Assembly (NCBI GenBank): GCA_029261275.1 | Contig: JAJDBR010000245.1 | Coordinates: 1-41,282, forward strand | Direction: 5' to 3' | DNA from: Nitrospirales bacterium | Lineage (GTDB): Bacteria; Nitrospirota; Nitrospiria; Nitrospirales; UBA8639 | DNA length: 41,282 bases | Part shown: positions 14,057 through 41,003 of the stretch, one piece after another | How the letters are laid out: each line of letters starts with the position of its first letter | Position numbering within the stretch: position 1 is the stretch's first letter | Notes under the pieces: model-generated | The model's input: only the letters and a program-made list of their open reading frames with translations | Told to the model about the DNA's origin: nothing | The model's database searches: none | Position numbers and translations under genes: made by a program

Positions 14057-15787
14057 TTGGCTTGGTATGATTTTTATGTGTTGCTCGTGCCCTCTCCATC
14101 ATACGGAGCGAGCCGTCATCGCCTTCCAGTTTCTTTTCCGATCAATCATGGGTTTCCCATGAAACGCTGCCCCTTTGGGCTTTGTATTCATCTCAGTCAT
14201 AAGGGTTGGTTGAGTTCCTCGATTCGTTGGAACGTAGTTCAGAAGAGAAGACAAAGAAAGAGTGAGGGGAGGGGGATGAAGCGAATTTCATCGAAATTGG
14301 GATCGTTTGCTGCGCGTTTGGGTGGAGCTCAAACTGACGCAGAGCAAAAGCTATGGATGCGCCTTCGAGATGGTCAGATGAAGGGGTGGAAGTTTCGTCG
14401 CCAACATCCTATCGGTGGGTATGTTGTTGATTTTTGTTGTTTGGAAGGGATGCTGATTGTTGAGCTGGGTAGTCGGCAACATTCAGATGACGACAGAGCT
14501 CATGAGGTGTGCGCAAATTATTTGGGCGCTGTGGGGTTTCGTGTGGTTCGATTTTGGAATGATTATGTTCTGACTCAGATGGATGATGTATTAGAGGAAA
14601 TTTTGAAGAGCTTAGAAGGGGTGGAAAGTCCTGATCCTCAATCTCCAGGGTTCTCTTTTCAGGGAAATTCTGCGGAATGGGAAAAAGATAACCAGATTCA
14701 AGAGAGAAGTGTGAGGGAGACCGTCCGACGTACTCCAGACGAGTTAGATTTGCGGATGCCCGCGGAGTGGGAGCGGCATGAGGCGACTTGGATTGGGTGG
14801 CCGCATAATACGACGGATTGGCCTGGGAAGATGGCGCCCATTCACTTGGTATATGGGGAAATTGTCCGTGAATTATCACAAAGTGAAATGGTGCGTATTC
14901 TCGTCAACAATAAAGTGCATGAGCTGAAAGCTCGTCGGGTATTGGATCGTATTGGGGTGTCCATGGACCATGTTGAGTTTGTCCGGATTCCTACGAATCG
15001 TGGGTGGACACGTGATTTTGGCCCAATTTTTCTTAAACAAGATGAGCCTTCAGCTCAGGTGAGTATTGCGCGCTTTCAATTCAATGCTTGGGCCCGTTAT
15101 CCCGATTGGCAAAAGGATAATCGGATTCCCGAACGCGTCGCCGCAAAATTCCAGATACCTCTAGTTCCCGTGATTCAGCAAAATCGGGAGGTCGTGTTGG
15201 AGGGTGGCAGTATTGATGTGAACGGACAGGGGACGCTGTTAACCACTGAGGAATGTCTCTTGGATCAACATCTTCAGGTTCGGAATCCTGGATTTTCACG
15301 TCAAGATTATGAAGAGGTGTTTAGGCGATTCTTGGGAATTGTGCATGTGCTGTGGTTAGGCGAAGGCATTGCTGGTGACGATACGCATGGACATGTGGAT
15401 GATTTCTGCCGGTTTGTGGATCCCTATACGGTGGTTCTTTGTCAGGAGCCAAATCCTTCAGATAGAAATTATAGGCCCCTTGCTGAAAATCGCGAACGGC
15501 TTGAGGGGATGCGCTGCGAGGACGGTCGGAAAATTGGCATCATAACATTACCGATGCCGGACCCAATATATTTTGATGGGCAACGACTTCCGGCGAGTTA
15601 TGCGAATTTCTATATCGCCAATTCGGTGGTGATCGTACCGACATTTAATGATCCGAATGATCGGGTGGCGTTAGGCATCATGTCTGAACTCTTTCCTGAT
15701 CGAACGGTGGTAGGTCTGCACGCGGTCGATCTGGTGTGGGGATTTGGGACTATCCATTGTCTCACGCAACAACAACCGGCAATGTGA
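14057..15787 (+). CDS. aguA: Agmatine deiminase with N-terminal in-frame DUF559-like domain (DUF559 part from ATG 14276; canonical AguA start could be ATG 14756)
   Basis: C-terminal 'MPAEWERHEATWIGWPHN', 'NRGWTRDFGPIFL', 'GIAGDDTHGHVDDFCRFV', 'GTIHCLTQQQP' (agmatine deiminase incl. catalytic Cys); N-terminal 'AARLGGAQTDAEQKLWMRLRDGQMKGWKFRRQHPIGGYVVDFCCLEGMLIVELGSRQH' (DUF559). Confidence 0.9.
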   Translation: MAWYDFYVLLVPSPSYGASRHRLPVSFPINHGFPMKRCPFGLCIHLSHKGWLSSSIRWNVVQKRRQRKSEGRGMKRISSKLGSFAARLGGAQTDAEQKLWMRLRDGQMKGWKFRRQHPIGGYVVDFCCLEGMLIVELGSRQHSDDDRAHEVCANYLGAVGFRVVRFWNDYVLTQMDDVLEEILKSLEGVESPDPQSPGFSFQGNSAEWEKDNQIQERSVRETVRRTPDELDLRMPAEWERHEATWIGWPHNTTDWPGKMAPIHLVYGEIVRELSQSEMVRILVNNKVHELKARRVLDRIGVSMDHVEFVRIPTNRGWTRDFGPIFLKQDEPSAQVSIARFQFNAWARYPDWQKDNRIPERVAAKFQIPLVPVIQQNREVVLEGGSIDVNGQGTLLTTEECLLDQHLQVRNPGFSRQDYEEVFRRFLGIVHVLWLGEGIAGDDTHGHVDDFCRFVDPYTVVLCQEPNPSDRNYRPLAENRERLEGMRCEDGRKIGIITLPMPDPIYFDGQRLPASYANFYIANSVVIVPTFNDPNDRVALGIMSELFPDRTVVGLHAVDLVWGFGTIHCLTQQQPAM

Positions 15788-30559: not shown

Positions 30560-32866
30560 TTAGAACAGTCCCAGCGTGACTCCTCCAAAAACAGAGAGGG
30601 GAGGAGCTAGAAGAAATGCTTGCTTAGACGCATCGGCTGTGCTGTCAGACACGATGGCTCCGCTACCCATATACGTTTGATCGAAGAGATTTTCTACCTG
30701 TACATAGGCTTTGAATAACCGAACCCAACCCCATGCAACGTCCTGGGCATAATGGAGATTCACGTTCACCACGGTGGCGGCTTGAGCCTTCAGGGTATTG
30801 GCATTATTCACAAAATAATCGTCAATCCATGAAACCTCAAACCAGCCGCCTAACCCTGAAAGGTGATCATAGGCGGTTCGGAAATTCAACACATGTGGTT
30901 CTACAGCTGGGACATTTTTTCCGTCACGGTCGACCGAGGTGCCGATGCCTCCGACAAGAATAGTGTCGGTGAAATTTGTGAATTTGGCATTGACATAGGT
31001 ATATGCTGCAGAAAGTGTGAGTCCGTCAAGAGGCATCCATTCTGCGGCGACTTCGATTCCGCGGTATTCTGAAGAATCTGCATTGGTAGTAAAGCTTCCT
31101 GTTCCACCGACAACGGATTGTGAAATTAATTCGTCTTTGAAGAAGTTCCAAAATCCAATGAGTTGGAAATTAAAACGCGGATGAAGACGAACTTGGCCTC
31201 CTAGCTCCAAATTGATATTCCGTTCATCATCGAGGTCATTATTGGCACCGGGCAATCCTGTTGGAGAGGTCGTGAGGTTCCCAAAATTTGGAGTACCATA
31301 TCCGCCTGACACACGTGTCCAGTATCGATCATGTTCGTTGGGATGAAATTCGATAGAGACATCTGGGGCAACATTATGAAACTTGCGGTTGGCACTGGCT
31401 TTGCTAGTGACGGTTCCGCTGAAAAATCCAAAATTGACTTGATCGACGGATAAATGGGTTCGCTCGTACCCTAGCCCTGCTGCGATAGTCCATTGAGGAG
31501 CTAAGTCTAATTCTTCGCGGATACGAAATCCAACATTTCTGATGGAACCACGTTGGTTATTTATGGCATTTTGCTTGCTGCCTTTACCATCAGCCAAGTT
31601 GCGGAGATTCGTGGTTTCCGTTTCAAGGTACTCAAAAAATACTCCACCATGACTGCGAAGTGGCATCCCGAAGAAGTTGTACACATTCCGCACATCAGCG
31701 CGCGTTTTCCAATTGGGTTGTACTTGATCTAACGTTATCCCAAATTTTTGATTGATATCTTTATTATCGTAGAGCCCAGAGAGAGAGACCTCGGTGTCGG
31801 GAGTAATTTGATTGGCGTATCGACCACCGATGATGGTTCGGTGGTCACGGCGAGAACGATCATTGGCTTTTGCTCCTGTTCCTGCCTGTTTTGGTTGTGT
31901 TTGGAATTGCGTAAGTGTGAGTCGTTGAGGGGTCAGGACATCCAGGTCATTGTTGGCAGCCTTAAAGAAAAAGGTCTGTTGATCATCAATTTTGAAACGA
32001 AAATTGGCATCGACGGTGGTGGTCGAAAAATCGCTGTGATCTTGATAGCCATCACCTCGTTCATGGCTCACGAAGACGGCAGCGTCCATATGCTTATATT
32101 CTTTTCCAATAGCTGTTCCATATTTTTGATAGCCGTAACTGCCCACGCTGGTGAACGTTTCCACGCCATTGATGTCACTTCCTTTGCGCGTTCGAAAATT
32201 GACGATCCCACCCAGAGCATAGTTGCCATACAACGCAGATGATGCGCCTCGCTCGACATCAATGGCTTTCATAAACCAGGGGTCTTGCAAATCCAAGCGA
32301 GATAGGCCGTCTGATTGGGTGACGTCAAACCCATCTTCAAACACCCGAATCTTCTGAACACCGAATGCTTGTTTCGCCCCAAATCCTCGAATAGCAATAC
32401 TATAATCGCGTGGGCCATTGCGTTTGCGCAGAATGATTCCAGGTTGGCTTTCCAATGACTCCCTGAAATCTTTGGCAGGTTGGTTGTCAATCTGATTGCG
32501 ATTGACTGTTGAACGTGTGATGCCCTGTGGTGCTTGTTGAAGACGAGTGCTAACGACGGAGATTTCATCTAACACTGTTACTTCTTTTTCTTTCAGAACG
32601 GTCTTTGCTGTTTGCGTTGCTGACGAATTATTGGGCGTGGATTCCAGGGATTCAAGCTCGGCTTGAACACGACGCAGTTTCTCTGTGAGTATTTGAAGTT
32701 CCTTCTCTAATGTCTTTCGTTGTTCCAGTAAGGCTTCTTGGTTTACCGAAGAGCCTTCCGAAGTAGCCGGCAGAACTAGAGAAAGACTCATATTGAAGAC
32801 AATGAAGGCTATGCTGATAGGTATGTTGTGACTGACAGATGACATTAACCATTGGCGCATGTTCAC
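30560..32866 (-). CDS. TonB-dependent outer-membrane receptor with N-terminal coiled coil
   Basis: TonB box/plug 'VTVLDEISVVSTRLQQAPQG...DFRESLESQPGIILRKRNGPRDYSIAIRGFG...IDVERGASSALYGNYALGGIVNFRTRKG', C-terminal beta-barrel strands ending in aromatic 'GGVTLGLF'. Confidence 0.95.
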   Translation of the reverse strand: MNMRQWLMSSVSHNIPISIAFIVFNMSLSLVLPATSEGSSVNQEALLEQRKTLEKELQILTEKLRRVQAELESLESTPNNSSATQTAKTVLKEKEVTVLDEISVVSTRLQQAPQGITRSTVNRNQIDNQPAKDFRESLESQPGIILRKRNGPRDYSIAIRGFGAKQAFGVQKIRVFEDGFDVTQSDGLSRLDLQDPWFMKAIDVERGASSALYGNYALGGIVNFRTRKGSDINGVETFTSVGSYGYQKYGTAIGKEYKHMDAAVFVSHERGDGYQDHSDFSTTTVDANFRFKIDDQQTFFFKAANNDLDVLTPQRLTLTQFQTQPKQAGTGAKANDRSRRDHRTIIGGRYANQITPDTEVSLSGLYDNKDINQKFGITLDQVQPNWKTRADVRNVYNFFGMPLRSHGGVFFEYLETETTNLRNLADGKGSKQNAINNQRGSIRNVGFRIREELDLAPQWTIAAGLGYERTHLSVDQVNFGFFSGTVTSKASANRKFHNVAPDVSIEFHPNEHDRYWTRVSGGYGTPNFGNLTTSPTGLPGANNDLDDERNINLELGGQVRLHPRFNFQLIGFWNFFKDELISQSVVGGTGSFTTNADSSEYRGIEVAAEWMPLDGLTLSAAYTYVNAKFTNFTDTILVGGIGTSVDRDGKNVPAVEPHVLNFRTAYDHLSGLGGWFEVSWIDDYFVNNANTLKAQAATVVNVNLHYAQDVAWGWVRLFKAYVQVENLFDQTYMGSGAIVSDSTADASKQAFLLAPPLSVFGGVTLGLF

Positions 32867-33073: not shown

Positions 33074-34339
33074 CTAAGTGTTTGGCCAAGACATCACTTG
33101 AAGGACGGTGTGCCAACCAGGGAAGCGAATTTGCTCTTGCCAGGCTAGGATTGCTTGTCCGTGGGAATTGACGGCTACCGCAGGATGCTTCGATTTTTTC
33201 GTATTCAATTTTTCCGGAGCACTAAACGAGAGTCCGCGGTCCAATGAATAGCTCATCACGACTTCACGCCTGACTGGAGATTGTTCTTCCCAAATCACGA
33301 GAAGGCGGCCTTTGCGATCAACGGCCATTTGCGGGTGATCTGGGAAGGTGCCTTTGGAGACGTTCAGCTGACGTCGAGGGGTAAAGGTTTTTCCTTGATC
33401 ATCTGAATAGGCGAGATAGACGCCTGGAGTATCATCAGGGCCTTCTGTGTACCATGTGACGTAGAGGCGCCCTTGTTGGTCGGTTCCCATGGTCGCAGGT
33501 CGATGAGGGCACCCCTCGAACGCCCAGCGATCATGTCCGACGATGACCGCAGGAGAAAATGTTGCGCCATGATCAGTGGATCGAGTAACGACGGTCTCTC
33601 GAATGTTTTTAGGAAAAACTTTTCGCCAAGCAAGATATACCGTACCATCCGGTGCAGTCGTGGCATGTGTGCGGCAGCAGACACAACTCGTCTCATCAAT
33701 TTTCAGGTTTGGGGAAAGTGTCTGACCCTGGTCTTTCGAAAATGAGGAATAGGTAGCAGGGTCTTTTTCCCCTTCCCTGGCGTCCAGCCACACTATATGG
33801 ATGGAACCATCCTGGCCTACGGTGAGGTGGTCAAAGGAATGGCCGGTCACAGCATTGTCATCGTTGACTTGGATTGGCGGGAGAAATGTCTGTCCACCGT
33901 TAAGCGAGCGGCTTAAAAGGAGGAGGCTGGTAAAGAGTTTTTCTTTTGCGTTTGGATGGGGAGTCGTCCAAGTAAGGTAGACATCATTTTTCTTGCCTAA
34001 GGCCAGTGCTGGAGGTGCATGGAGAGACGCGGCAGGAGTAACGGGAGAATTGAGGTTTATGGGATGAGGAAGTGGTTCCTTTGAGTTGAACGGCGCTTGG
34101 ATATAATAAGTGCTGAGTTTCTTTTGGTTGGCTTCAATCCATGATAAATGAAATATGCCTGTATCAGACAATTGAATGGCAGGTCCTGAGACCGGCTTTG
34201 TGCCATGGTTTAAGCGAATTTTTTCCCCTAATGCGATAGATGAACGTGGCACATTTTGATCGGAATAACTCAATCCAGGGGCGATGAATCCTAGTGAGAG
34301 AAAACAAAGTGTGGCGATATATTTAATTTGGCAAGTCAT
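33074..34339 (-). CDS. Exported BNR/sialidase-like beta-propeller protein with CVCCRTHA motif
   Basis: Asp-box-like repeats 'SLNGGQTFLPP', 'SKDQGQTLSP', 'STDHGATFSPA', 'SDDQGKTFTPR', 'SLDRGLSFSAP'; signal peptide; 'DETSCVCCRTHATT'. Confidence 0.85.
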   Translation of the reverse strand: MTCQIKYIATLCFLSLGFIAPGLSYSDQNVPRSSIALGEKIRLNHGTKPVSGPAIQLSDTGIFHLSWIEANQKKLSTYYIQAPFNSKEPLPHPINLNSPVTPAASLHAPPALALGKKNDVYLTWTTPHPNAKEKLFTSLLLLSRSLNGGQTFLPPIQVNDDNAVTGHSFDHLTVGQDGSIHIVWLDAREGEKDPATYSSFSKDQGQTLSPNLKIDETSCVCCRTHATTAPDGTVYLAWRKVFPKNIRETVVTRSTDHGATFSPAVIVGHDRWAFEGCPHRPATMGTDQQGRLYVTWYTEGPDDTPGVYLAYSDDQGKTFTPRRQLNVSKGTFPDHPQMAVDRKGRLLVIWEEQSPVRREVVMSYSLDRGLSFSAPEKLNTKKSKHPAVAVNSHGQAILAWQEQIRFPGWHTVLQVMSWPNT

Positions 34340-34558: not shown

Positions 34559-35365
34559 CTACCTTGGATCATCAATGTCGTCATGTGTGTTCGTCCTTGC
34601 TACTTTTTGAGGCATATGAAAACTTAGTGGGTTTAATGCCTGGTAACTAACCCTTGCCTGTTCTTCAGCTTCAGGATCGAAAAATCCTTCGGACATGCCT
34701 GTTTCATGAAGATAGAGCGGTTGGTGAGGTTTCGGGTCTTTATTGTAAGTTTCGACCATTGAGTGAAACTTCAATCTTCCGGCTTCAATCCGGTCAATTT
34801 CATCGTCGGTCCCATACGTTACAGTTGGTGGATAGGGGCGGCATGAATCAATCGCCGCATTGATAATGGGTTGGAGTTGCAAAAAAGTGTTCAAAGCTTG
34901 AATGGCAATCGGTTGTTGTCTGGAAGGAAGTGTGGACACAAAGGCCCGTCGCGATATACCTGTCGGCCTATTCTCTGTAAAAATGATCGCTCGATCGGTT
35001 CGAAACGCAATTGCCCCATGAAGCAGGGCTCCATTCGAGAGATCGTCCAATGTGATGAAATGAGTATAATCTTTTCGTCGTGCTTCTCCACGATTCTGAG
35101 GGACATATTGTCCAGGAATCCGTTGAATAACCAAGTCACGATGGACAGCGGCTTTAATTCTGATACTTGCTCTTTGATATTGCTTTTTACAGAGGCTTGG
35201 ACTAAACGGTCTAGAATCTAACCTTAGATGAAATACTTCTTCAGCATGAGTGGGGGACGCCATGATTACCAGAAGCATGACGCCTCCAATTCCTGTCGTG
35301 AAAACTCTAATTGTGTTGCGACATCTTTTCAGTATCTTCGTTATCATGGTGATTTCCTTCCCCAC
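34559..35365 (-). CDS. Hypothetical exported protein
   Basis: Signal peptide-like 'VFTTGIGGVMLLVIMASPTHAEE'; co-oriented in TonB locus; no family recognised. Confidence 0.65.
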   Translation of the reverse strand: MGKEITMITKILKRCRNTIRVFTTGIGGVMLLVIMASPTHAEEVFHLRLDSRPFSPSLCKKQYQRASIRIKAAVHRDLVIQRIPGQYVPQNRGEARRKDYTHFITLDDLSNGALLHGAIAFRTDRAIIFTENRPTGISRRAFVSTLPSRQQPIAIQALNTFLQLQPIINAAIDSCRPYPPTVTYGTDDEIDRIEAGRLKFHSMVETYNKDPKPHQPLYLHETGMSEGFFDPEAEEQARVSYQALNPLSFHMPQKVARTNTHDDIDDPR

Positions 35366-35502
35366 ATAATGTCTCAGAATTCCGATTCTGGACCGGCGCG
35401 AAATGAACCTCGGGTGTCTGGATTAGGCGAATCAGAACAGCAAGAACATGTTTAGAGACGAGGTGAAAATGCTGCCATCATCACTGGGTTGCAACAGAAC
35501 GA

Positions 35503-35820
35503 TTATGGGAGAAGAAAAGGAGGACCGCGAGAGGCCGGGTGATGGCTGAAGCCAAGACTTGGGAGTGTTGGGCGAGGAAGGTCAAGAAGAGCAAGAATCT
35601 TCGAAGAATTTTCTACAAAAATTTGAAGAACATGAAGCCCTTGTCCTGCTTGGCAAGACCAGCTACACCAATCTTGCTCATGTGTCTGTTGATCATGCCC
35701 AGCGTGCTCGAGGTGCACAGAAAGGTTTTGTGTCAGGCCAGTACTAACGAAAAGAAAGCTGACCCCTAGGAATAGGCAGAAAAATTTGCGCATGAATGGA
35801 GACTGAGGAAGTAGAGTCAT
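35503..35820 (-). CDS. Small exported His/Cys protein, CxWxC family member A (DUF2946-reminiscent)
   Basis: Signal peptide 'FFCLFLGVSFLFVSTGL', 'HLEHAGHDQQTHEQDWCSWSCQAGQ', C-terminal 'SRGPPFLLP'; motif shared with 36435-36806 and 40701-41003. Confidence 0.7.
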   Translation of the reverse strand: MTLLPQSPFMRKFFCLFLGVSFLFVSTGLTQNLSVHLEHAGHDQQTHEQDWCSWSCQAGQGLHVLQIFVENSSKILALLDLPRPTLPSLGFSHHPASRGPPFLLP

Positions 35821-36000
35821 GTCTAACGAAAATTTGAAATGTAATCCCTAAATATTTTGCTCAACCTAACGGGTTTTCAAAAAACTGTCTACCTACTGCT
35901 GCTTATCAATGCTACACTTTTTATTACCTGTTGATGCTACGCATTTATGCACTTTCCTCTACAGATGAATGCGGTCACTTTCAACACTTCAGGCAAGAAA

Positions 36001-36207
36001 TTATCGCGTGCCAGTGGTGATCGGTTCCCAATAGTCTTTGCGGTTGTGTTCAACCAAGGTGTCAATTGAATCACGGAAGATACGCAAACTCCCTTTTCCG
36101 ATTTTCGTGGCTTTGAGACGGTCTTCTTCTACCCAACGGTAAATGGTCCACCGGCTCACGTTTAACGCCTTGGCGGCTTCGCTGACACGTAACAATTCTT
36201 GATTCAT
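36001..36207 (-). CDS. Excisionase/MerR-type helix-turn-helix DNA-binding protein
   Basis: 'LLRVSEAAKALNVSRWTIYRWVEEDRLKATKIGKGSLRIFRDSID' HTH_17 pattern. Confidence 0.85.
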   Translation of the reverse strand: MNQELLRVSEAAKALNVSRWTIYRWVEEDRLKATKIGKGSLRIFRDSIDTLVEHNRKDYWEPITTGTR

Positions 36208-36434
36208 TGCCTGCCCTCCTTAACACGCGAATAAAAGCGTTCCTCACGTTCATAACAATAACCAAAAGTTTTTCCCCTGAGATGAAATAGGTTCCTGGTT
36301 TCCTGAGCTGACGTTTTGCAGACTCAGGGAGTCGTGTATTAATCCCTAAAGAATCACAATGCAGAGGAAAGGTAATTGTTTCCTTGTCTGTGAATGGTAT
36401 TCATCACAATTGAGAACTGGGGATTGAGAAGGAA

Positions 36435-36806
36435 TCAGAGCAAAGGAGGTCCACGGGGGGTTGCAAAGGAAAAGGGAGAGGGAACTAAAGGAATGGCTAG
36501 GGGGAGTACGATTCTAAGAAGAATGAGAAGGGGAAGTGGAGTAAGGTTTTCTGTTGGCGTTGCCGAAGCGGTGATTTGCCCAACCTGGCATGCCCATACA
36601 CAGAGGATAGAAGTTGATGATTGATGATCCTGATGATGTGAAGGTTGGGGATTGCTTGCGGTTGAAGCACAAAATGTTCCAACCGCTATAAGAGTGAGGT
36701 GAATTCCAAGAAGACCGGCGACCAGAAAGGTGGTGAAGGAAGGCCTGGTGTCTACCCGCTTGAGGGACAGAAATGAATTGAGCTGAGAAGGTCGGTGGAA
36801 GCGCAT
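36435..36806 (-). CDS. Small exported His/Cys protein, CxWxC family member B
   Basis: Hydrophobic N-terminal segment, 'HHQDHQSSTSILCVWACQVGQ', C-terminal 'PRGPPLL'. Confidence 0.65.
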   Translation of the reverse strand: MRFHRPSQLNSFLSLKRVDTRPSFTTFLVAGLLGIHLTLIAVGTFCASTASNPQPSHHQDHQSSTSILCVWACQVGQITASATPTENLTPLPLLILLRIVLPLAIPLVPSPFSFATPRGPPLL

Positions 36807-36825
36807 TGGATTCGTATGGCAAAAA

Positions 36826-37236
36826 TTATTCTGAAGATGACGGTTGTGTTGCGATGCCCATACTGGTGATCCCGCTGAGACGAATGAGATCCATTACCTT
36901 AATGACTCGTCCGTGTGGGACATATTCGTCGGCATTGATGAGTAAAGAAGGATCCGATGATGTTTGTCGAAGGTAGGTTAGTCGTCTTTCGAGTTCTTCT
37001 AGTGTAATGACCTCTTTGTTGTAATAGAGTATGCCTTCTCGAGTCAGCGTAAGGGACACATGCTCGTCGAGGGAATCGGTTGAAGATTCGGCTGTGGGCA
37101 GTGAGACGGGCATACCATGCTGAAGGGTCATGGACAGGGTAGCGATCATGAAAAACACCAGCAAGAAGAACATGGTGTCAATCATGGGAATGATTTCGAT
37201 GCGCGGTTTCTTTTTGGCGGCGGCTGACAGTCTCAT
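36826..37236 (-). CDS. exbD: Biopolymer transport protein ExbD
   Basis: 'IEIIPMIDTMFFLLVFFMIATLSM', 'YYNKEVITLEELERRLTYL', 'LINADEYVPHGRVIKVMDLIRLSGI'. Confidence 0.9.
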   Translation of the reverse strand: MRLSAAAKKKPRIEIIPMIDTMFFLLVFFMIATLSMTLQHGMPVSLPTAESSTDSLDEHVSLTLTREGILYYNKEVITLEELERRLTYLRQTSSDPSLLINADEYVPHGRVIKVMDLIRLSGITSMGIATQPSSSE

Positions 37237-37844
37237 AGATTGGTGGGCTTGATCAGGTGTTGGAGCATGGCCTCGGTTTTCGTGGCAAAATGTTCGATCT
37301 TTTCGGTTTCTTGTTCCATTCGCGCGACGAAAAAATTGTAGGGGATTAGGGTGGTCACCGCGACAACAATACCCGCTGCGGTGCAGATTAGGGCTTCCGC
37401 CACTCCTCCGGTCACCGCATGGGGATTACCTAAGCCAGTTTGGGACATGATGCCAAATGAATCAATCATGCCGATGATCGTTCCCAATAATCCCAAGAGT
37501 GGCCCGAGGGTGATTACGGTATCCAATAGGGGAAGGCCGCGTTTCATCTTGGTAAGTTCGACAATGGCGGCAGCTTCCATGGCTTGGCTTGGATAGTTGG
37601 TGCGTTGGTGAACTCCTGTGGATATGACTCGAAGCACAGGGCTGGGTTGAGGCTCTGCGACGGCGAGTGCATCGGTGAATTTTTCTTGTTCGATAAGCGA
37701 GAGCATTTTCGGTGCCAAACGACTGGCTTGGAAATTTCTAAAATAGATGAATCGTTCAATGCTGACGGTAAGTGCGAGAAGAGAACAACCTATGATGGGA
37801 ATCATCATCCATCCCCCGCTCATGAGTAAGTTAAGAAATTTCAT
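37233..37844 (-). CDS. exbB: Biopolymer transport protein ExbB (MotA/TolQ/ExbB family)
   Basis: 'LPLLDTVITLGPLLGLLGTIIGMIDSFG', 'VTGGVAEALICTAAGIVVAVTTLIPYNFF'; start 37844 (MKFLNLLMSGG); overlaps exbD by 4 nt. Confidence 0.9.
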   Translation of the reverse strand: MKFLNLLMSGGWMMIPIIGCSLLALTVSIERFIYFRNFQASRLAPKMLSLIEQEKFTDALAVAEPQPSPVLRVISTGVHQRTNYPSQAMEAAAIVELTKMKRGLPLLDTVITLGPLLGLLGTIIGMIDSFGIMSQTGLGNPHAVTGGVAEALICTAAGIVVAVTTLIPYNFFVARMEQETEKIEHFATKTEAMLQHLIKPTNL

Positions 37845-37869
37845 CGGTGTACCTTCTCTGTGGGAGTCG

Positions 37870-38766
37870 TTAACTATTGAGGTCAAAGTTTATGGGGATA
37901 TCAACCCATTTTGCGATGGGGATGTTCCCATCTTTGGCTGGTTGGAAGATCCAGTTTTTCACGGCGGCTTGTGCCGCCTGATCCAATGTTGGATGTCCAC
38001 AGCTTTTACGAATTGAGACTTGGCTGGGAATGCCGTTTGTGTCGATGAGGGTACGAATAATGACTGTTCCTTCCCATTCAGATTCTCGTGCCACTCGTGG
38101 ATAAATCGGCTTGGATGATGACATGATCGTTGGGCGAGTCATCGTCGTTCCTGAATGAGCTGGTGGTGTGGCAGTGAGCCTCGGTGGTGCTGTCAATGTC
38201 GGTGGAGCGGGAAGTGACCGAGCTCCTGAATGTTTGTTTGTCACTATCGGCAACGGGGGCAAGCTCCGATTCTTAGACTTGGGGCGACGATTCAGAGTCG
38301 GCAAGGAATGTGCTGTCTGTTGGCTGTGTGGCTGCTCTCGCATTTTCATCATCGCTCTGGCTTTCATGGCTTCTGAGGCTCGGATATCTTTCAGGATTGA
38401 TTTCTCTGGAATAGGTGGGGGCAATAGGGACTGTTTCATGGGCGGTGAGGGCGTCAGGTTGGTCTGTAACGGAGGTGATGGAGCCTGTGACCGATTGAGT
38501 GGTGTCGGAGGGGCCATAGCCGGAGGCGCAGATTCCCGCATAATGGTGTGCGGATGTTGGGACGACGTGGGAGGGGGTGGCGTCTGAAGGATATCCGGCG
38601 CTGGCAATAATCTAACCTGAACCGTTGGGGGTTCATCCTTTACAATAGTGGAGTGTGGCATAGAGGCCCAGCTGGCCAGGAGCAAACCATGCACCAGAAG
38701 ACTGCCTAAAGCGCTAAGCACAAAAATTTGAGTATCGGAGTGGTGATCAGGAAATGTCGACGTCAC
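37870..38766 (-). CDS. tonB: TonB family energy-transducing protein (canonical, Pro-rich)
   Basis: N-terminal TM 'LSALGSLLVHGLLLASWASM' containing SxxxH, Pro-rich linker, C-terminal 'YPRVARESEWEGTVIIRTLIDTNGIPSQVSIRKSCGHPTLDQAAQAAVKNWIFQPAKDG'. Confidence 0.9.
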   Translation of the reverse strand: MTSTFPDHHSDTQIFVLSALGSLLVHGLLLASWASMPHSTIVKDEPPTVQVRLLPAPDILQTPPPPTSSQHPHTIMRESAPPAMAPPTPLNRSQAPSPPLQTNLTPSPPMKQSLLPPPIPEKSILKDIRASEAMKARAMMKMREQPHSQQTAHSLPTLNRRPKSKNRSLPPLPIVTNKHSGARSLPAPPTLTAPPRLTATPPAHSGTTMTRPTIMSSSKPIYPRVARESEWEGTVIIRTLIDTNGIPSQVSIRKSCGHPTLDQAAQAAVKNWIFQPAKDGNIPIAKWVDIPINFDLNS

Positions 38767-39809
38767 GACCCAACCCGTTTCAGGAGTTTGGCAATTCGCT
38801 CATCCTGTCCCCCAAGCTTCACATATTCTTTGTAATATTCCAGAGCTTTTTCTGAGTCATTAAGGTGAAATTCATAGAGCAGCCCCAAATTGTAATGGGC
38901 TTCGGATAAATCTGGGTTGAGGGCTAATGCGGCCCGGTACTGCTCTTCTGCCAACTTCAGTTGGGAAAGGGCAGCATAGACCACGCCTAAGTTAATATGG
39001 GCTTCGGAATTTTCCTGATCCAGCCGGAGGACATTTTTGAACGCCTCGGCTGCTTCTGTGTATTGTTCTTGTTGTTGGTACAACATTCCCAGATTGAAAT
39101 ACGGGTCGACGAGTTGTGGGTGGAGATCGATCACCCGTTGATAGGCGGCGATAGCTTTTTGGGTCTGGTCCGACTGCTGCGCCAATGCTCCTATCATGAG
39201 CCACCCATTCAAATGTTCAGGATTTTGGGCCGTCAATTGTTCAACATACGGCTGTGCCCGCTCGGGCTTGTCCTGCTGTAGGAACCAAAAGGCTAGGCCG
39301 TACAGTGCGTCAAGGTAATGAGGATCCAATTCTAAGACCTTCTGATGTGCTTCTATGGCCTGGGTGGCATCTTGACGTTGATCAAAAAGCGCAGCGAGTG
39401 CCGTCCAGCCTTCCAGATAATGCGGGTAGATCACTGAGGCCTGCCGAAAAGCCTTTTCCGCTTGTTCGAATTGGAATTGATCTTGATAGACAAACCCTAA
39501 ATCCACATACGCTTGAGCAAACGAGGGATAAGCATTGACGGCTTTTTTCAGTGCGACAATGGCCTGTTCCGGTAGGTTGAGTTGGGTCAAGACTAAGCCC
39601 AATAGGTGATGCGCTTCAGCATAGTTAGGATAGAGATGGATCGCATGCTCCAAGGGAGCTTTGGCGGATGCCCACTGATTGTGCTGATAGGCGGTATAGG
39701 CCTGAGAGAAGAGGTCTTGAGCCTCTCCGGCATGACTGTTTGTTTTAGGGCTGAATAGTAAGATGATGGTATAAAACAAGAAAAGATAGGTATTTCGATT
39801 AGAATTCAT
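38763..39809 (-). CDS. Exported TPR-repeat protein (paralogue of 29261-30331)
   Basis: Signal peptide; ~8-9 TPR units; overlaps tonB start by 4 nt; 'EAHHLLGLVLTQLNLPEQAIVALKKAVNAYPSFAQAYVDLGFVY'. Confidence 0.85.
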   Translation of the reverse strand: MNSNRNTYLFLFYTIILLFSPKTNSHAGEAQDLFSQAYTAYQHNQWASAKAPLEHAIHLYPNYAEAHHLLGLVLTQLNLPEQAIVALKKAVNAYPSFAQAYVDLGFVYQDQFQFEQAEKAFRQASVIYPHYLEGWTALAALFDQRQDATQAIEAHQKVLELDPHYLDALYGLAFWFLQQDKPERAQPYVEQLTAQNPEHLNGWLMIGALAQQSDQTQKAIAAYQRVIDLHPQLVDPYFNLGMLYQQQEQYTEAAEAFKNVLRLDQENSEAHINLGVVYAALSQLKLAEEQYRAALALNPDLSEAHYNLGLLYEFHLNDSEKALEYYKEYVKLGGQDERIAKLLKRVGS

Positions 39810-39840: not shown

Positions 39841-40446
39841 TTACTGTACTAAATCAAATTGAATAGGAATATTGACGGTGGCGGCCACCGGAAAACCACC
39901 ATTCCTTGCTGATTGAAAAGTCCAGAGTGTTGCAGCCTTGATGGCATGGTCATCCAGGAGTGGATAGCCAGAACTTTTGTGGATACTGCCAGATTCTACT
40001 TTCCCGTTGGGCGCAATCTTCAACCGCACGATGACCCGACCGTGCCACCCCTGTTCACGAGCTCGTCTCGGGTATGGTGGGTGTTCTGTTTTCAATGGCT
40101 TAACCGGAGTATGGAGATTTGTGGTTTTGGCTGTGTGATCCAAAAGGATGCGCGACTGAGGAGGGATTGGCTTCATGATTTTCAGTTTTGGAAGAATCAA
40201 GTGGGTAGTGAGGCTCAGGGGATCATGTGTTGGCAATATAGGAATTGGAAATTTTAGGTCCCGAGGTGCCTGTTTAATCACTGCCCCTGTAATTTCTATT
40301 ACCTCTAATGTTTCAATCTCTTCCATGGCAGGCTCCATGCTGTGAGCGACGACCAGAGGGGAAAGAATCAATATGGCTGTTAACCAGAAGCTACCCTGAT
40401 ATGATACCCTTAGTGGAGAGAATATGAGAAATTTAATTATGGCCAT
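39841..40446 (-). CDS. Second TonB C-terminal-domain protein, atypical N-terminus
   Basis: 'HPPYPRRAREQGWHGRVIVRLKIAPNGKVESGSIHKSSGYPLLDDHAIKAATLWTFQSARNGGFPVAATVNIPIQF'; start 40446 preferred within ORF ending 40488. Confidence 0.85.
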   Translation of the reverse strand: MAIIKFLIFSPLRVSYQGSFWLTAILILSPLVVAHSMEPAMEEIETLEVIEITGAVIKQAPRDLKFPIPILPTHDPLSLTTHLILPKLKIMKPIPPQSRILLDHTAKTTNLHTPVKPLKTEHPPYPRRAREQGWHGRVIVRLKIAPNGKVESGSIHKSSGYPLLDDHAIKAATLWTFQSARNGGFPVAATVNIPIQFDLVQ

Positions 40447-40700
40447 TACACCCTGTTCTTTACTATAGGACTGTATCTTTCTCTGCAATCTTATCAGGTT
40501 CTAGGGCCCCGATCTTTGGGAACTATAGCTAGCTCACCCTGAAAAATCACGGGAATGGTTCCCCTGAATGATCCAATACCTCATGAGTGAAGTCACCAAG
40601 CCAGATCCCCTTGGCTTAGCTAGGCTACGAAATTTTCGCAACCAGCAGCTGGTCTAAGAGGTGCGTCGGGAGTACGGTAAAGGATAAATTTTCACAAAGG

Positions 40701-41003
40701 TCAGATCGGGGGAGCTCGGCTGGGAAGGAAAATCTGACGAGGAGCCTTGATCAATGAAGGGGATAGTGGCTGTAAAATGTCGAGTGGTGAAATTTCCGGC
40801 GAGAAAACTTGCGCCTCAGTAGATAGGGCTTGTGCAGCTGTGCACATCCAAGCACAAATACCGGTGGTGTGGGTTTGCGAGGAATGATGCTGATGATCAA
40901 TGGCATGCAAGGCCATATCAGCCTCTAGAGAACCCATGACAAAGATGAGCACCATCGTGAAGGCCAGTGAGAGAGATTTGAGAAATGGCATCATCGAATG
41001 CAA
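40701..41003 (-). CDS. Small exported His/Cys protein, CxWxC family member C
   Basis: Signal/TM 'SLAFTMVLIFVMGSL', 'DHQHHSSQTHTTGICAWMCTAAQ', C-terminal 'SRAPPI'. Confidence 0.65.
   Translation of the reverse strand: MHSMMPFLKSLSLAFTMVLIFVMGSLEADMALHAIDHQHHSSQTHTTGICAWMCTAAQALSTEAQVFSPEISPLDILQPLSPSLIKAPRQIFLPSRAPPI

Follow-up and report, generated by a model that had tools for sequence, protein, structure and literature searches.

We identified a small secreted protein, here called TonB2, which ends in a TonB C-terminal domain (CTD) and whose N-terminal segment is very probably a TonB box of the receptor type, the short handle on which TonB pulls outer-membrane nutrient receptors. The TonB2 gene is the first of a conserved operon, TonB2-TPR-TonB1-ExbB-ExbD, at the right end of the window, that is, the whole 41,282-nucleotide stretch of a Nitrospirales contig that was analysed. 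By its CTD TonB2 belongs to the TonB_C family, and by the defining features it is neither an energy-transducing TonB nor a receptor. Judged from its motifs, it appears to be without either known motor contact, yet with the contact through which a receptor meets TonB.

Architecture of TonB2 and its operon

TonB2 consists of a signal peptide, the TonB box, a short linker and one CTD (Table 1). The sequence-only reading had described a protein ending in a full TonB CTD, and PF03544 (TonB_C) indeed matched residues 122-199 with 81 bits. The signal peptide was called by simple rules, not by SignalP, from the hydrophobic segment and the small residues that orthologues have at -1/-3; these rules place a probable cleavage near VVAHS, the site suggested in that reading, and the box of the orthologues lies within about 5-17 residues past the predicted cleavage. 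The frame is also open from a possible TTG start further upstream, at 40488. As had been read, the SxxxH membrane helix is present in the canonical TonB of the operon (SLLVHG) and absent from the TonB2 of the window, while two TonB2 orthologues (L027, L029) show an SxxxH string close to their signal peptide. Plug and beta-barrel are absent from the 201 residues, with no match to PF07715 or PF00593. Immediately before the CTD, the linker holds a short motif conserved in the orthologue alignment A1, ILLDxTAxT...VKPLK.

Table 1. Coordinates of TonB2, its parts and the neighbouring Ton genes in the window
Feature	Coordinates	Strand	Basis
TonB2, secreted TonB-CTD protein, 201 aa	39841..40446	-	ORF, Pfam domain match, orthologues
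TonB2 signal peptide, residues 1-36	40339..40446	-	Probable cleavage near VVAHS
TonB2 candidate TonB box ETLEVIEITGAV, residues 45-56	40279..40314	-	Receptor-trained motif, column entropy
TonB2 linker	40084..40278	-	Alignment A1 of orthologues
TonB2 TonB C-terminal domain	39844..40083	-	PF03544, AlphaFold2, Foldseek
TPR1, secreted TPR protein between TonB2 and TonB1	38763..39809	-	Domain match, synteny
TonB1, canonical TonB: SxxxH helix (SLLVH), D-box PTVQVRLLPAP, TonB_C	37870..38766	-	
ExbB	37233..37886	-	Conserved position, 49-83% identity in relatives; named from sequence and neighbours
ExbD	36826..37236	-	As ExbB: position and identity in relatives, sequence and neighbours
TonB-dependent receptor, box TVLDEISVVSTR	30560..32866	-	Domain matches, receptor motif, structure/family comparison

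The genes follow one another on the minus strand in the order TonB2, TPR1, TonB1, ExbB, ExbD, small secreted proteins, a BNR-repeat protein and the receptor. TonB2 ends 31 bases before TPR1, and the pairs TPR1/TonB1, TonB1/ExbB and ExbB/ExbD overlap. The order TonB2-TPR1-TonB1 is kept in about 25 relatives, together with ExbB-ExbD where the contig extends that far. TonB1 (ILKDIRASEAMKAR) and TonB2 (ILLDHTAKTTNLHT) share a short linker motif, which the intervening TPR protein may bind.

Three small secreted proteins (35503-35820, 36435-36806 and 40701-41003), conserved in relatives, lie on either side of the Ton operon. They contain His residues and a CxWxC-like motif and are possibly metal-related; two resemble DUF2946 weakly (under the curated cut-off). 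The BNR/sialidase-like secreted protein (33074-34339) has a CCRTH motif and adjoins the Ton operon in several relatives. YncD/PqqU is the nearest solved relative of the receptor, which scored 186 bits with the PqqU family against a cut-off of 1200; a coiled-coil-looking extension, EALLEQRKTLEKELQILTEKLRRVQAELESLES, precedes its TonB box. Elsewhere in the window, a single open frame (14057-15787) has, by eye only, a DUF559-like segment upstream of an agmatine-deiminase-like protein. In the 3.8-Mb draft genome containing the window, TonB_C gave five matches, and four clear receptors were found. At G000:C135 of this genome (about 34819-37255; L080, L004), a receptor plug whose frame contains two TGA codons lies near a TonB_C match with a TAA; these are decayed genes or assembly errors.

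The N-terminal segment resembles receptor TonB boxes

The sequence-only reading had aligned TLEVIEITGAVIKQAPRDL of TonB2 (residues 46-64, 40255-40311, minus strand) with VLDEISVVSTRLQQAPQGI of the receptor (32519-32575), and the letters and positions of both are right. The pairwise match is weak: five of 19 residues are identical, the BLOSUM62 score is 29, and the best-19-mer score was reached in 13 of 300 shuffles, so that the match proves little alone. The QAP described as invariant did not survive, since orthologues read YAPRD, QTPRN, PTPRD, QQERT or KTSRT at this place and the L047 relative of the receptor reads KRPEG; QAP was thus rejected as a meaningful part of the match and is a chance agreement. 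What stood of the 19-residue alignment is its box-like core, which was recovered by a motif trained on receptors.

We employed an expectation-maximisation (EM) procedure with a 12-residue motif and no prior on 44 non-redundant segments that precede the plug domain, taken from receptors of related genomes and excluding TonB2. The TonB box, [EVQ]TL[DEP][PE][VI][VTI]V[TS][AG][TS][RK], was recovered. This receptor motif scored a mean of 13.4 bits, and up to 27 bits, on 34 TonB2 relatives, compared with a mean of -2.7 bits (99.9th percentile 14.6) on shuffled TonB2 proteins and a mean of 2.0 bits on the N-terminal parts of TonB1 proteins. The shuffle P was at most 0.004 in 24 of the 34 relatives, and the TonB2 of the window reached 9.7 bits (shuffle P 0.004). 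In a random-region control of 383 genes from one relative, four reached 9.7 bits anywhere in the protein and none reached 12. When proteins with a rule-based signal peptide were surveyed, every one scoring at least 9.6 bits was a receptor or a TonB2, counting four receptors and one TonB2 that had been roughly sorted as 'other' and were reassigned on reading; the best of the remaining secreted proteins sampled scored 8.6 bits. In several genomes with a receptor in the same cluster, the mature ends of receptor and TonB2 are nearly alike, for example in the receptor of L037 (QIETLPTLTVEGTR; DEQIETLPTLTVEGTR) and the TonB2 of L012 (PIETLEVIEVTGAT; SEPIETLEVIEVTGAT).

When 59 related genomes were searched, TonB2 orthologues were found with 33-65% identity over the mature protein. 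The sequence-only reading had proposed a search for homologues retaining both box and CTD, and had named homologues without a conserved box-like segment as evidence against its inference; in alignment A1 all 29 orthologues keep the segment, with one Leu invariant and one Glu nearly invariant. Right after the signal peptide they keep (I)ETL(D/E)xIE(V/I)(T/P)(G/A)T, with the consensus (I)ETLDVIEVTGT. The mean column entropy was 1.08 in the box and 1.15 in the CTD, compared with 2.70 in the residues before the box and 2.69 in the linker, indicating that the box segment is under constraint while its flanking residues drift. These orthologues share descent and are not independent observations.

The resemblance might be a matter of chance, as the five identities in 19 residues would allow, but the motif scores, the random-gene and secreted-protein controls and the conservation across 29 orthologues make this barely credible, and we rejected it. 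Altogether, the receptor motif and the orthologue conservation strongly support the idea that TonB2 is a periplasmic protein combining a TonB CTD with a receptor-like TonB box. The box of TonB2 differs from those of receptors in its nearly invariant Glu (LxxIE), at a position mostly taken by V, T or I in receptors. Another partner or a weaker binding is thus possible, and the Glu may mark a dedicated partner of TonB2.

TonB2 lacks the motor contacts of TonB1

TonB binds ExbD via a short strand right after its membrane helix (PMC10907165, PMC10771500). The same EM procedure, run on 35 TonB1 proteins, found this D-box as PTVQVTLVPA, with 26 bits for TonB1 and a mean of -3.4 bits for TonB2; in the reverse test, the receptor motif gave TonB2 14.9 bits (30 proteins). 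The ExbD-binding D-box was accordingly not found in TonB2 with this motif, and a motor-binding role of TonB2 is unlikely. That the segment is itself a D-box, making TonB2 an anchorless but motor-driven TonB, is suggested by D-boxes being likewise short strands near the TonB N-terminus (PMC10907165, PMC10771500). However, the receptor motif shows the opposite of the D-box scores, and the TonB2 segment is without the proline flanks described in PMC10907165. We consider this reading very improbable, and the D-box identity of the segment was rejected on the D-box motif scores.

Predicted structure of TonB2

In the AlphaFold2 model of the mature window TonB2, the CTD was predicted with a pLDDT of about 92. 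Foldseek matched it to TonB CTDs, including those solved with receptors, with a TM of up to 0.85 (target-normalised); the modelled CTD has the box-binding TonB fold. With a linker of about 55 residues, the box could reach back and fold onto the CTD of its own chain until a receptor box displaces it. The models speak against such self-inhibition: residues 1-66 of the window TonB2 were coil, with the box at pLDDT 53-61 and no strand, and for the relative whose box is most canonical, the model was poor (pLDDT 57) and showed no confident docking (pLDDT about 40). A confident contact in cis between box and CTD was thus not found in the two models, which are single-chain models from shallow alignments and weigh little as evidence. 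We regard self-inhibition as decidedly improbable.

Distribution of TonB2

TonB2 proteins with the box were found in the family of the window and in three genera of a second family, and those bearers for which a name was given are nearly all Nitrospirota or Nitrospirales, with one entered as Nitrospinota. Among the matches seen, other families of the order have TonB1-like proteins only, and some Nitrospirales relatives carry TonB1 without TonB2, indicating that TonB2 is not essential to such a motor. In a small sample, no N-terminal box was found in the TonB_C proteins of other phyla (L150-L162) or in part of those from other Nitrospirota classes; the top box score among them was 9.1 bits, in one protein at residue 208.

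In one genus (g4), where the TonB2 gene adjoins receptor genes, most TonB2 proteins have two tandem TonB CTDs, and their box has diverged (L069, L070, L072, L138, L139, L141-L146; box SVEFLDAIEIADTL). The diverged box of this lineage, EFLETLEIADTL, scored 1-3 bits with the receptor motif.

A possible relay between TonB1 and receptors

The sequence-only reading had offered a mimic or competitor of the TonB box, a relay between TonB and receptor, or a receptor-derived fusion. The relay fits best, since TonB2 is without SxxxH and D-box, yet keeps box and CTD; the mimic or competitor still stands as a rival, and a receptor-derived fusion is possible as the origin of TonB2. We propose for TonB2 the role of a soluble adaptor in the periplasm, held by TonB1 at its box and gripping receptor boxes via its CTD, and give this an even chance. 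The CTD of the membrane-anchored, motor-coupled TonB1 would grip the TonB2 box by beta-strand addition, as it would with a receptor, and the CTD of TonB2 would in turn grip an outer-membrane receptor by its box; the ExbBD pull would then pass from TonB1 to TonB2 to the receptor. TPR1, more speculatively, might hold both TonBs together. The receptor-type box on a TonB-domain protein suggests a chain in which one TonB pulls another. The resulting two-stage Ton system, with force from ExbBD going through an anchored TonB and a free TonB to the receptor and the CTD-box joint being used twice, has by our estimate a little under an even chance.

Several observations weigh against the adaptor. The box Glu is unlike that of receptor boxes, the window copy reached just 9.7 bits and the box of the two-CTD lineage has diverged, Nitrospirales relatives with TonB1 only exist, the linker of TonB1 seems long enough for unaided receptor contact, and the supporting orthologues share ancestry. 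Instead of transmitting force, TonB2 could act as a decoy or regulator whose box competes for TonB1, or whose CTD shields receptor boxes, thereby setting the number of receptors energised. It has both binding halves and no motor link, and within the same operon its levels could track those of TonB1; however, one half would suffice for this, and box and CTD are about equally conserved, which favours the use of both ends. We consider a decoy unlikely. Having box and CTD in one small protein would also allow the box to bind the CTD of another TonB2, forming head-to-tail chains across the periplasm, and the two CTDs per chain of one lineage would make branching possible. The nearly invariant box Glu might tune partner choice either way, and self-assembly seems to us quite improbable. 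Nitrospirales include important nitrite oxidisers, and TonB2 may show how they divide one motor among several receptors.

Comparison with known Ton systems

TonB2 shares its CTD and fold with the energy transducer TonB (E. coli TonB, HasB; PF03544, TIGR01352), but is without the SxxxH helix and D-box and has a cleavable signal peptide and a TonB box. With TonB-dependent receptors (PF07715, PF00593) it shares the signal peptide followed shortly by the box, but is without plug and barrel. MxcH-type receptors (NF038079) are the nearest known oddity, as they too have a TonB_C domain outside the usual inner-membrane TonB. However, MxcH is a receptor of 792 positions with TonB_C at the front, whereas TonB2 has the box, then the CTD, and no receptor; its NF038079 match of 31 bits, against a curated cut-off of 925, covers the TonB_C part only.

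TonB boxes also occur on non-receptor proteins, namely the TonB-dependent colicins and pyocins. A consensus pentapeptide is common to colicins and receptors (PMC11658791). These colicins and pyocins are imported toxins, whereas TonB2, a resident protein, has a TonB domain. FusB is a TonB homologue which contacts its ferredoxin substrate and, like TonB2, places a TonB CTD in a dedicated paralogue (PMC7593965). Unlike TonB2, it is an inner-membrane protein, and we saw no TonB box reported for it. In the literature searched, of which coverage is incomplete, we came across neither a TonB homologue bearing a TonB box nor a TonB-TonB chain. The standard model places motor contact and receptor contact together on each TonB. 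A TonB-domain protein with the handle of a receptor and without the motor contact would imply either that CTD-box joints can work in series or that cells regulate TonB through a built-in decoy.
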